A stretch of 33,097 nt of DNA from the NCBI GenBank assembly GCA_024277755.1, contig JAJRUN010000014.1, positions 1 to 33,097 on the forward strand, in the 5' to 3' direction. Each line of letters starts with the position of its first letter. Positions within the stretch are counted from its first letter, which is position 1. Made by a program: the position numbers and the translations under genes. Source of the DNA: Gammaproteobacteria bacterium. GTDB lineage: Bacteria; Pseudomonadota; Gammaproteobacteria; Tenderiales; Tenderiaceae. Below, in pieces: positions 27,568-33,097 of this stretch. The notes below the pieces were generated by a model, which did not search any database, had not been told where the DNA came from, and was given only the letters and a program-made list of their open reading frames with translations.

Positions 27568-27702
27568 ATCAACTTATCTCCAATAGTGCCGCTAGTTTAA
27601 CAGCCTTGTGTAATTATGAGACTCAGGCAGAAAAACCATATATTTCTATCAGTTGCCAGCTATAATGGCCGGCTATTATCTGAAACAGGGTTCAAATAGC
27701 TC

Positions 27703-29046
27703 ATGATCCGAGTCAGTGGTTTAACCAAGATTTTTGAGGGTGGCAACAAAGCCATCAACGATCTGTCGCTGGAAGTCAAACAGGGTGAAATCCTTGCTTT
27801 GCTTGGCCCGAATGGCGCTGGCAAAACAACAACCATCCGAGTGCTCACCACTCTGAGTGGTTTTGACCAAGGTGAAGTAGAAGTCGCCAGCTTCAATGTT
27901 GATAGCGATCCGGAGTCTGTCCGTCGCGCCATTGGCCTGGTAGCCCAAAAAACAGGGGTTGATCACTTTCTAACCGGCCGTGAAAACCTGGTGTTACAGG
28001 GCCGCCTCTACAGAATGAATACCGCTGAGATCGAATCACGGATTATCGAGTTAGCCAAATATTTTGAGCTAGACGACTCCCTCGACCGCACAGTAATGAC
28101 CTATTCTGGTGGCATGCAACGCAAACTCGATATCGCTACTGCCTTGATTCATAAACCAAAAGTTCTGTTCCTGGATGAACCAACTCTGGGGCTCGACATC
28201 AAGAGCCGTCAGAATTTGTGGCAATACATCAATAAACTAAACATTGAACAGGGCCTGACCATATTGCTCACCACCCACTATCTTGAAGAAGCTGACCACC
28301 TGAGCCACCGCGTTGCGATTATCAACCAGGGAAAAATCCAGATCATCGACACCCCTGAAGCCCTTAAAAATGATATTCATGGCGATGCTGTCATTCTTAA
28401 TTTTGACAGCCAAGGCCCTGAGACCGGCGATTTCACCTATGCCCTGCATGAAGACCCAGAGATCAAGGATGTTGTCTGGCAAAATGACAAACTTCACGTC
28501 TACGTCGACAATGGCGGCAGCGCTGTACCCAAGCTTGTCCACCTGGCCGAAGAAAAAGGACTGCTCATCAAAAGTCTTTCCCTGTCACAGCCGAGCCTGG
28601 ATGATGTTTTTCTGAAATACACCGGTACCACTTTGGATGAAGCAGTGAAAGAAGAAGGTGACGAATGGTGGCACCAGTGGGCAGGCAAAGGCGGTGGAGG
28701 TAAATGGCAGAAGAACTGGGATAAATGGCAGGACAAGATTGAAGAAAGTGGTTCTGAAGAAGATAAAGCTGGCTGGCAAGATAAAATGCAAGAATGGCAG
28801 AACAAGGACGACAGCGGTCAGAATGGATCAGCCAGCCCAACTAAAACCGATAATAGCCCGCAACAACAAAGTGGCAAGCAGCCTCAAGGCGACGGGGAAA
28901 AGTCGCAGAAGACTAATGACCAACCACAACAGTCTACTGACAAACAATCGGAATCAGATAAACAACAGGACTGGCCACAACAACAGTGGGCTGGCAAAGA
29001 TCAAGGTGACTGGCAGAAATGGCAGCAACCTGAAAAAGATAAATAA
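27703..29046 (+). CDS. ABC-2 type exporter ATPase with a Trp/Gln/Lys-rich C-terminal tail
   Basis: Residues 1-316 are a DrrA/CcmA-type nucleotide-binding subunit. They include LLGPNGAGKTTTIRVL (Walker A), VAQKTGVD (Q-loop), TYSGGMQRKLDIATAL (signature), VLFLDEPTLGLD (Walker B) and LTTHYLEEAD (H-loop), then a C-terminal domain ending LDDVFLKYTGTTLDEA. Residues 317-447 are an added hydrophilic tail of about 131 residues with twelve Trp, many in WQ-x steps (KWQK, KWQD, GWQD, EWQN, DWQK, KWQQ), and Gln/Lys/Asp/Ser-rich linkers. I know of no such tail in the family. The permease follows 41 bases later, so the pair forms a drug/polymer-type exporter of unknown substrate. Confidence 0.92.
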   Translation: MIRVSGLTKIFEGGNKAINDLSLEVKQGEILALLGPNGAGKTTTIRVLTTLSGFDQGEVEVASFNVDSDPESVRRAIGLVAQKTGVDHFLTGRENLVLQGRLYRMNTAEIESRIIELAKYFELDDSLDRTVMTYSGGMQRKLDIATALIHKPKVLFLDEPTLGLDIKSRQNLWQYINKLNIEQGLTILLTTHYLEEADHLSHRVAIINQGKIQIIDTPEALKNDIHGDAVILNFDSQGPETGDFTYALHEDPEIKDVVWQNDKLHVYVDNGGSAVPKLVHLAEEKGLLIKSLSLSQPSLDDVFLKYTGTTLDEAVKEEGDEWWHQWAGKGGGGKWQKNWDKWQDKIEESGSEEDKAGWQDKMQEWQNKDDSGQNGSASPTKTDNSPQQQSGKQPQGDGEKSQKTNDQPQQSTDKQSESDKQQDWPQQQWAGKDQGDWQKWQQPEKDK

Positions 29047-29087
29047 AGACCAGCCCCACGCTAAAGAATTTTAAAGAGAGAGTTATT

Positions 29088-29846
29088 GTGTTTGCAGATA
29101 CCTGGCACCTGTTTCTGAAATATACCAAGATCACCCTGCGCATGCCGCTGTGGACCTTATTCACCCTGATCCAGCCATTACTATGGCTGATCATCTTTAC
29201 CCAACTGTTCAAAAACTTTGTTCAGGCACCCACTGACGGTGGTAGCTACATAGATTTTTTCGTGCCCGGCGTACTAGTGATGACAGCGCTGTTTGGCTCA
29301 TCATGGTCAGGGGTTAGCCTGCTGCGCGAAATCACTGCCGGCTCCGTGGATAAGATGTTAGTTTCGCCAGTCTCCCGTGTTGCCATCGTTCTCAGCCGGG
29401 TAATGCACTCAGCGGTGCAGGTGGTATTACAAACCCTTACCATCATGCTGGTCGCCTGGGCCTTTGGTGCCAATCTAAACCTGGACCCCATCAATCTACT
29501 CCTGGCGATGGTCAGCATCTTTCTGCTGGGCGTTGGCCTAGCAGCGCTTTCAAACGGCTTTGCCATTATTCTACAACGTGAAGAACCACTGGTCATGATT
29601 GGCAATCTGATGACATTACCACTGATGTTTCTGTCCACAGCCATGGTGCCAAAGCAATTCATGCCGGGCTGGATAGAAGCAGTCTCGCTAATCAACCCAA
29701 TCACTTACGCCGTGGAGTCTGTTCGCGCAGTGTTGGTCGGCACACCGGACCTGGGCACCTATGGCTTTGGCGTCGGCATCATGTTTGTGTTTGCGGGTTT
29801 GTCACTGGCCTGGGCAGTCAGCGCCTTCAATGGGCTGCGTGATTAA
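29088..29846 (+). CDS. ABC-2 type transporter permease
   Basis: The 252-residue protein has six predicted membrane segments and the ABC-2/DrrB layout. It has the N-terminal amphipathic stretch MFADTWHLFLKYTKITLR, then FTLIQPLLWLIIF, FVPGVLVMTALF, the cytoplasmic REITAGSVDKMLVSPVSR, FLLGVGLAALSNGFAI, LPLMFLSTAMVP and the characteristic INPITYAVESVRAVL. It starts with GTG at 29088, preceded by AGAGAG. It forms the membrane half of the exporter with the upstream ATPase. The substrate is unknown. The 150 bp after it hold small inverted repeats (29874-29888 and 29953-29992) but no clear terminator. Confidence 0.93.
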   Translation: MFADTWHLFLKYTKITLRMPLWTLFTLIQPLLWLIIFTQLFKNFVQAPTDGGSYIDFFVPGVLVMTALFGSSWSGVSLLREITAGSVDKMLVSPVSRVAIVLSRVMHSAVQVVLQTLTIMLVAWAFGANLNLDPINLLLAMVSIFLLGVGLAALSNGFAIILQREEPLVMIGNLMTLPLMFLSTAMVPKQFMPGWIEAVSLINPITYAVESVRAVLVGTPDLGTYGFGVGIMFVFAGLSLAWAVSAFNGLRD

Positions 29847-29996: not shown

Positions 29997-31925
29997 CTAG
30001 AAGTTCATCCGCATACCTGCATTGATGGAGTTTTTGCTAAAACTCCCCAATGAAGTACTTTGCCGCCCTTCTATCGACTGCAATTCATTAAAGATAAAAC
30101 CCACCGGAAGATTAGAGTACTGGTTTGAAAAACGGTAATCTGCAAAAAGACTGACCCAGGAATCAACACGGTAATTTATCCCGCCTCCAAAACCAAAACT
30201 AAAGGTACGGCGGAAACGCTGAAACCTGGTTCCTGAATCACCATTATGATACATATTCAGTGAGACACGCCCATCGGCATACACTGACAATGATTCATCG
30301 AGACGTTTGTCAATTCGACCATTCACACCATGCCCCGTGTAAGCATAGTCACTGCCCTGAACATTTCGGCTGTTATTGATCGTTAGCGAGTAACCATAAT
30401 TCAAATAGACATTGTTTGGCCCGACATGATTACGACTTAAGCTCAGATTTACTGTATCCGCATCAAAAAATGGATTGGTTGATGAACCAAACCCCTTGTA
30501 GCTCAAATTCGCTCGATAGCCGACCCGGTTCTCGTCCATCCAACTTGCTGAACCCGTTAGGGTTTGTGTCACCGTTGAGCTTTGCTCTGGCCTAAGGACA
30601 CTCGACTGAGCATTCTGAGCAAGCCCTAAGCTCCAGTCGTAACCCCATTTATCAAATAACAAACTTGGCACCACTGAGAAATTAAAGAAGTCATATTGAG
30701 CACGATGATAGATTGAATAAGAAGGGGAAACATTAACAGACAGTTTCATACCCTTTCTTAACTTATAGCGATAATTAACTCCCGCATATAAATCAGAACG
30801 GTACTCAAAATACTTTTGCTCACGCGCACTATTCATATTGTCATCAAAACCAACCGAATAGCCAACTGAATAACTAAAACCATTGGTCTGACGCTGAAGA
30901 TAATCCATTCTATCCTTTGCTCGTTTTTTTAAACCTGACGGAATTCTCTGAGCCAAAGTCACAGCCTTATACTGATTGATTGCCTTTTTTTCTTCTTCCA
31001 GTTGCTCATAAACATACGCAACACTCATTCTAGCCCGATGATAATTTGGATATTTCTCAATAATTTTCAGATACCAATCAACCGACCTTTCCAGCTCGCC
31101 CTGTTGTGCGGTAGACACCGCCAAGCCCCATAACACGGCCAGCTCATCAGCCTTCATTTTATTGGCACGTAAAAAGTTTTTTTCTGCCTTTACCGCATCA
31201 CCATTTTTCAATTCAAGATTAGCACTTGCTATCAACAACCTTAACTCCAATCTATCCCGACCCGCCTCATCAATATGTCCGGCAAGACCCATTTGATACG
31301 CTGAAACAGCCTTTTCAAACTCACCAGAATCTTCATAAACAAGACCCGACTTTAAGAAACCATCAGCATAATCAGGCCCTATCCGCATGGCATTTTCAAA
31401 ATACTTAATTGCTTCATCACGGCGCCGTTGCTTCATCAACAAGTCCCCCATACCCACCAACGTAACCACATCTTCTGGCGTTTTCTGTAGCCTGGCTTTT
31501 AGAGCGGCCTCATCGGCCAGCATGCCACGCACTGACGTCAGGTTCCAACGCTTCGCAACTTTATCAAGGGTATTCTGAGCGGCTTTGCCAACTGGGGAGG
31601 CCGGTGCTCTAGCAACAACAAAATCCAATCCGCGAACTGCACTTAACACATCCGAAAGTTCAAGATTAATAATGGCCAGACGATAACGCGCATCCAGGTT
31701 GTCTGGCTGAACCGCTAAAACTCGTTGATATGCTAGCTTAGCCCCTTCATAGTCTTTTTTATTGTGCAAATAACCAGCCACATTCATATTGGCTATCACA
31801 TGATTTTCATCCAATTTCAAAACCTTCTGAAACTCGGCATGAGCAGCATCTCTATCGTCCGCCTGAACATATGCAAAAGCTTTCAACACTCCCACCTTAA
31901 TCCTTGCAATACGTTCAGCGCCAAG
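29997..31925 (-). pseudogene. 3' portion of a TPR plus outer-membrane beta-barrel gene, cut off from its 5' part by an in-frame TAG
   Basis: From 31925 the frame runs 642 codons plus a stop, in the same frame as the upstream TPR gene and separated from it only by TAG at 31926-31928. It continues TPR units (YVQADDRDAAHAEFQKVLKLD, YEGAKLAYQRVL, DEAIKYFENAMRIGPDY, FEKAVSAYQMGL). It then becomes a beta-barrel of about 290 residues beginning SYSVGYSVGFDDNMNSA and ending INAGMRMNF with a C-terminal Phe typical of outer-membrane proteins. Alone it has no signal peptide. A GTG at 31895 with AAGGA upstream could start a separate protein, but a barrel without export is unlikely to work. The layout resembles PgaA/BcsC or Slam proteins; identity is uncertain. 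Confidence 0.75.
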
Positions 31926-32693
31926 CTAATCCGCATTTGCTATTGCTTGCTCATAATATTTAATCGCTTTTTTTGGCTGACGTAGTGCTTCGTAAACACC
32001 AGCAAGGTAAAAGGCGACAGCGGGGTTATTTGGTGTTTGTTGAAGCAAACGCTCATAAGCAAGTCTAGCCTCATCAAACAAGCCAGATCGTGCATAGGTG
32101 GTTGCAACAACCTCCAGCATTGTTCTATTGCCTTCATGGTCAATCATCAATGCACGACCGATTTCTAAAATTCTGTCTCGGTCACGGTTTTCTAATGCTA
32201 ACCTTAATCGCAGTAAATCCATTTCAAGTGATGTTTGTTTGGCATATCGAAAACTAGGCCCTGCCCCAGCCAAGGCACGTTCATATTCCTGAACAGCTTC
32301 CTCGCCCTTACCAATTTCTGTTAATGCTTTGGCTAGCGCCAGCCTGGGCAAGGGATTTTGAGCCGGGGTTACAGCAACTGCGCGTTGTATCAGGTCAAAA
32401 CCTCGAACATGATTGCCTTTTCGAAAATTGATGACAGCCAACTGATACAGCGCCTCCCCAGATTTTGGGTCGAGAAGCAAAACATCTTCATAAAATTTTA
32501 TGGCCGCAGCGACATCACCCTGCTTCAGGGCACTGCGACCGGACCTTTTCAATTTTTCAAGCTGTGCAGCTGCCGCCCCCACATCAACATCTGCCAATAT
32601 ATCCTGAGCTGAAGCGGGTGTTAGCGACATAGAAATGCAAAAGAACAACACACATGACAGCACGGATATCATTTTTTTACATGACAGGCTCAT
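31926..32693 (-). pseudogene. 5' portion of the TPR plus beta-barrel gene, ending at an in-frame TAG
   Basis: The 255-residue product has a signal peptide (MSLSCKKMISVLSCVLFF to about residue 30, cleavage after PASA). Tandem TPR units follow (SGRSALKQGDVAAAIKFYED, PKSGEALYQLAVINFRKGN, EEAVQEYERALAGAG, SGLFDEARLAYERLLQQTP, ALRQPKKAIKYYEQAIANAD), and it stops at TAG in the middle of the TPR array. The next codons continue the array in the same frame, so the ancestral gene probably encoded one protein of about 898 residues. A CAG to TAG change would explain it. The ATG at 32693 gives the best signal peptide; a TTG at 32705 overlaps the preceding stop. If truncated here, it would be a short periplasmic TPR protein. 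Confidence 0.75.
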
Positions 32694-32701
32694 ATGAAAA
32701 A

Positions 32702-33097
32702 TCAAAAATAAATATTCATTTTGAATAGCGCCTTCCAGCCATCAAAACTCAACCTGATCGCAGTATAATCCTCTTGATCCACCGGCACTTCAGCTAGATA
32801 TTGCAGATTACCTGTTAAAGGGTCCAGCCTTTGCGGCAACCAGATATTCACATTATCCGTTGATAAAAAATCTACTTTACTATTTCCATCGCCTAGATTT
32901 ACACGTTTAAATCCTATTATATATGAAGCATCAAAACCAAAAGACAGCCAATCACGGACAAAATAATCAATACCAAACCCAGGCTGGAGCATCATCAACC
33001 CGGTCGCCTGCGACTCCAGTATCATTGATTTTTTTACCCCTTCCGCATCACCGGAAGTAAAAAGAAAGATCAGATCTTCTCTATAATCAATATCAAA
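32702..33097 (-). CDS. Putative outer-membrane beta-barrel protein, C-terminal part only
   Basis: The frame is open from the window end to a TGA at 32702-32704, giving 131 residues. Alternating hydrophobic/polar strands with aromatic girdles (GLMMLQPGFGIDYFV, WLSFGFDASYIIGF, AIRLSFDGWKALFKMNIYF) and a C-terminal Phe indicate an outer-membrane beta-barrel. The start and signal peptide lie beyond the window. Its stop overlaps a TTG and lies 9 bases from the ATG of the TPR gene, so the two are probably co-transcribed and work together in the envelope. The family was not recognised. Confidence 0.7.
   Translation of the reverse strand, partial: FDIDYREDLIFLFTSGDAEGVKKSMILESQATGLMMLQPGFGIDYFVRDWLSFGFDASYIIGFKRVNLGDGNSKVDFLSTDNVNIWLPQRLDPLTGNLQYLAEVPVDQEDYTAIRLSFDGWKALFKMNIYF

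Follow-up and report, generated by a model that had tools for sequence, protein, structure and literature searches.

A lone in-frame TAG in a TPR/outer-membrane-barrel gene is probably a base error or rare minority base in a draft assembly

Does a single in-frame stop codon within an otherwise open gene reflect the biology of the organism or the assembly in which it is found? The question is raised by a locus within the window analyzed here, a stretch of 33,097 nucleotides that makes up one entire contig (C148) of an 85%-complete draft genome (G000; 2.65 Mb in 153 contigs). The initial annotation of this DNA described a gene for an exported protein with TPR repeats and an outer-membrane barrel, cut by one TAG, and offered a recent nonsense mutation, a sequencing error, programmed readthrough, or a strain-level switch as possible meanings.

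Layout and conservation of the interrupted gene

The whole gene occupies positions 29997 to 32693 on the minus strand and comprises 898 codons plus a terminal stop, broken once by the internal TAG; its frame, codon counts, stop position, and final phenylalanine are exactly as first annotated. The first part (31929 to 32693, minus strand) consists of 255 sense codons from the ATG at 32693, and its N terminus, MSLSCKKMISVLSCVLFFCISMSLTPASAQ, resembles by eye a typical signal peptide of about 29 residues, probably ending in ...TPASA (32607 to 32693, minus strand). The TAG follows at 31926 to 31928 (minus strand), and beyond it lies a second part of 642 open sense codons (30000 to 31925, minus strand), the last of which encodes Phe, before the terminal TAG at 29997 to 29999. 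TPR repeats are matched by Pfam on each side of the internal stop, and those of the second part are followed by the predicted barrel. A search of the gene's own genome found no second copy. On the plus strand of the window, at 27700 to 29846, genes for an ABC transporter ATPase and an ABC-2 membrane protein converge with the split gene, a layout that is conserved in relatives.

Ten complete homologues were aligned, three from the same genus (G001, G002, and G006, with 73%, 54%, and 51 to 52% identity to the protein, respectively), four from other family members (G007 to G010), and three from more distant genomes (G031, G032, and G046). Each of the ten is encoded by one uninterrupted gene for about 900 aa; G005 contributes only a 94-residue homologue fragment at a contig edge. 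The records of these relatives are themselves uncultured Chromatiaceae and Gammaproteobacteria drafts, with contig coverage of 6.7x, 3.4x, and 2.3x where stated. Because the 642-codon frame is in register and the homologues match over the full length, it is no product of chance, and the earlier view of one gene split by one stop, whose halves are meaningful only jointly, is borne out by these homologues.

The same alignment bears on the possibility that the locus encodes two separate proteins, a short one of 255 codons and a second one restarted at an internal GTG. A candidate restart is present at 31893 to 31905 (minus strand), where the GTG at 31893 to 31895 has AAGGA five bases upstream. 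However, every complete homologue is fused as a single protein, and homologues encoded as two proteins with the same boundary, which the initial annotation had named as evidence against a split gene, were not encountered. The restarted product would also be without a signal peptide and would be unable to bring its barrel to the outer membrane. Two products from this locus are thus, in our estimate, highly improbable.

Comparison with G001 shows that both parts are under purifying selection and that neither side of the TAG is decaying. Nonsynonymous and synonymous differences stand at proportions of 0.18 and 0.70, respectively, before the TAG and of 0.13 and 0.59 after it; because synonymous sites are near saturation, only the contrast between the two classes was used. 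Relative-rate counts with G002 as the outgroup are similarly balanced, at 16 versus 14 before the stop and 43 versus 42 after it. The initial annotation had called for a comparison of this kind between the halves. With 642 open codons and low ratios of nonsynonymous to synonymous differences, we see neither relaxed selection nor lesions beyond the TAG, as would be expected of a pseudogene with an established loss of function. A true nonsense mutation of very recent origin, through which the full-length exporter would be lost and a nonfunctional periplasmic TPR fragment left, would produce the same pattern without decay.

Decoding at the internal TAG

The position of the TAG is a variable one, aligned with Asp in G001 and with Gly, Asn, Lys, Arg, or Glu elsewhere. 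An origin by a single change from CAG (Gln) had been suggested, yet Gln is found at the aligned codon in none of the ten homologues, and this origin is therefore unsupported.

It is conceivable that the TAG is read through, by a suppressor tRNA, a leaky context, or recoding, to give the full-length protein. Such a reading would accommodate the intact and constrained downstream frame as well as the C that is the base 3' of the TAG, the feature for which the initial annotation had kept programmed readthrough open. The decoding apparatus speaks against it. RF1 is present and intact in this genome, and TAG is an ordinary terminator here, ending 42 of 150 long coding-like open reading frames in a 361-kb sample (TAA ends 76 and TGA 32), in agreement with the earlier judgment that genome-wide TAG recoding is unlikely. 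A suppressor tRNA with a CUA anticodon was found neither among the 33 tRNAs of this draft, which is incomplete and may conceal one, nor among the 30 of 39 tRNAs checked in G006 and the 30 of 33 checked in G003. Pyrrolysine was rejected on the grounds that the draft yields no PylS, for which relatives give only weak matches below the threshold. In addition, the stop is missing from all ten complete aligned homologues, and other genes of the draft are broken by UAA and UGA too, at Glu, Gln, or Cys positions, so that one suppressor would not suffice. Readthrough of this TAG is accordingly rated as very improbable.

A strain-level on/off switch of an envelope exporter by phase variation had also been proposed. 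Surface-facing proteins are common targets of phase variation. When the site is read directly, however, neither a repeat nor a homopolymer nor an invertible element is present at the TAG, and no interrupted allele is seen in relatives. Substitution to a stop is not known as a mechanism of reversible switching, and we regard this proposal as scarcely credible.

Lone stops elsewhere in the draft

The most informative context for the TAG is the remainder of the same assembly. We searched 614 kb of G000 with a codon-usage screen of uncalibrated sensitivity for in-frame stops between coding-like stretches, which were then read by eye. Seven conserved genes with a lone internal stop were found, the split gene included, or about 11 per Mb. 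Among the other six, the gene for RNase E (rne) has a TAA in its catalytic part (G000:C139:8222, plus strand), where relatives have Glu or another sense residue and nine are intact. The glutathione reductase gene (gor) has a TAG (G000:C103:887) and a gene for a bifunctional aldolase/dehydrogenase (aldolase/SDR) a TAA (G000:C150:11504), both at a position that is Glu in all aligned relatives, while rnfE has a TGA (G000:C29:10274) at a position that is Cys in all of them. The remaining two are TAG codons in genes for an NDUFA9-like protein (G000:C73:10374; Glu, Gln, or Asp in relatives) and an exosortase/EpsI protein (G000:C50:14983; Gln or Gly). Relatives are intact at each of the six sites.

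Applied to two control drafts, the identical screen yielded a single interrupted gene, for a transposase, in the 263 kb sampled from G001 and nothing in the 322 kb sampled from G004. Given the sample sizes, the excess in G000 is a modest contrast, with seven of eight cases if the transposase is counted (P=0.04) and seven of seven if it is not (P=0.009). The screen was unusable on G006 because antisense frames score as coding there. The transposase-like gene (G001:C99, L171:4829), IS256-type by eye, is interrupted by a lone in-frame TAG. In G003, a further draft from the genus, the RNase E gene (G003:C51:4564-5829, L185) is likewise interrupted by a lone TAG, which stands where all the compared relatives have Glu.

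With at least six further conserved genes of this draft, that for RNase E among them, cut by isolated stops, the likeliest origin of the TAG studied here is a wrong base in the assembly consensus, or else a rare minority base, in a gene that is otherwise ordinary. Sequencing error was among the options first listed, and it is the one that best fits seven genes interrupted by all three kinds of stop with uninterrupted orthologues in close relatives. We hold this reading to be probable but stop short of greater confidence because the missense comparison gave no raised error rate: in six of the seven interrupted genes, departures from otherwise invariant columns amount to 2.95% in G000, against 1.2 to 2.6% in the genus and higher values outside it. 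This is no clear excess, so that the comparison does not demonstrate a raised rate of missense errors in G000. Alignment of 69 kb with relatives revealed no frameshift. Natural loss is in principle conceivable for most of the seven genes, and it is RNase E that provides the strongest argument for error. A caveat is a second, RNase G-like protein, which shares 39% identity with the RNase E query and is uninterrupted in G000.

These other interruptions also weigh on the very recent nonsense mutation introduced above. The TAG does stand in the deposited sequence, the gene is plausibly dispensable, and lone nonsense alleles occur in natural populations. Against this, six other conserved genes in the draft are also hit, among them the normally essential RNase E, the rest of the operon is kept, and there are no frameshifts or further lesions. 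We therefore consider a true mutation unlikely, though far from negligible. It could alternatively be supposed that the lineage tolerates real stops through generally leaky termination at UAG, UAA, and UGA, so that all seven genes, RNase E among them, yield full-length products. Such readthrough would have to cover all three stop codons although no machinery for it was detected, and it seems to us about as improbable as suppression of the single TAG. Recoding of a single codon was rejected, since three kinds of stop replace differing residues.

The three clearest stops (rne, gor, and the aldolase) and the rne stop of G003 fit a G-to-T change, as damage might cause; however, G-to-T changes make up 31% of all nonsense routes, and the missense counts give no confirmation, leaving this pattern a hint only. 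A hypermutator was rejected on the basis of mutY, the gene examined, which is intact.

On the preferred reading of a consensus error, the locus would carry an ordinary gene, about 900 codons long and placed last in an envelope-export operon. The internal TAG would then be one miscalled consensus base in a fragmentary metagenome assembly, or a rare minority variant that the assembly picked up. We infer that the TAG base is absent or rare in the cells and that the living population probably makes the full-length protein. As biology, the TAG is then most likely without importance and the gene an ordinary intact member of its family. The case suggests a caution for draft metagenome assemblies: before a lone stop is ascribed to readthrough, switching, or gene loss, it should be weighed against the count of comparable stops in the rest of the assembly.

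A precedent is found in Mycobacterium smegmatis, in which 28 of 73 re-sequenced interrupted genes proved to be sequencing errors (PMC1852416). Both cases share lone events that split a conserved gene with intact orthologues, at several per megabase: about 11 lone stops per Mb in our sample and 4 proven errors per Mb in M. smegmatis (PMC1852416). The errors in that species were proven by re-sequencing, whereas those proposed here are inferred from the assembly sequence alone.

Predicted product, operon, and related systems

The gene product is most likely a protein with a signal peptide, a long periplasmic TPR solenoid, and a 14-strand outer-membrane barrel. In the AlphaFold model of the nearest homologue, the TPR solenoid extends to about residue 606 and is followed by a 14-strand barrel, and the internal TAG would fall in a loop between two TPR helices. 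The C-terminal 298 residues encoded in the window (30000 to 30893, minus strand) are likewise predicted to fold as a 14-strand barrel like those of OmpG and CymA.

PgaA and BcsC share this architecture of periplasmic TPR repeats leading into a C-terminal outer-membrane barrel, and a bacterial polysaccharide outer-membrane secretin (4y25), which we take to be PgaA, is among the fold matches of the barrel. The barrel of PgaA/BcsC-type exporters has 16 strands, however, compared with 14 predicted here, and the G006 homologue scores far under the NCBIfam cutoffs for both families (33.7 versus 366.65 bits for PgaA and 43.3 versus 858 bits for BcsC). No polysaccharide synthase was recognized among the operon genes of G006. 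TPR repeats followed by a 14-strand barrel are found as well in the Slam/DUF560 proteins of type 11 secretion (PMC8406197). The TPR_Slam repeat model, one among many matching TPR models, passes its cutoff in the second part of the split gene and in the G006 homologue; the first part does not reach it. The barrel region has no Pfam match to the Slam barrel family.

The split gene stands last in a conserved envelope-export operon. In G006 (L056:3420-12437), the order is a LolA-type protein, a 149-residue protein, a DUF1302 protein, an HAE3-type RND pump, a 296-residue outer-membrane protein, and the TPR/barrel protein. In G000, the gene upstream of the split gene encodes the outer-membrane protein; its 3' end lies at 32702 to 33097 (minus strand), where the contig end cuts it, and its start lies on contig C2, which adjoins the window contig by a 12-base overlap within this gene, 1.2 kb from the TAG. 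Orthologues of the queried operon genes are found on C2 with stops at gene ends only, and the remaining operon genes, mostly on this second contig, look intact. Directly upstream of the operon (L121:5879-8137 on C2) lies a tandem pair of genes for probably secreted proteins of about 310 residues, with 77 to 79% identity to the G001 relative.

It may be that the TPR/barrel protein moves a substrate over the outer membrane jointly with the RND pump of the operon. With three outer-membrane proteins beside its RND pump and LolA-type protein, the operon offers a modest lead in its own right. Its closest likeness is to AmeABCD of Castellaniella defragrans (PMC6394551), where an HAE3-family RND pump likewise occurs with a LolA/DUF1329-type periplasmic protein and a DUF1302 outer-membrane protein. 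All three occur together here, as assigned on the G006 genes with orthologues in G000, although the RND match to HAE3 lies under the NCBIfam cutoff (219.9 versus 351.9). A counterpart of AmeC was not identified in the operon. The putative export system would be AmeABCD-like and would differ from AmeABCD in the addition of two outer-membrane components, one of about 296 aa and the other the TPR/barrel protein encoded by the split gene.
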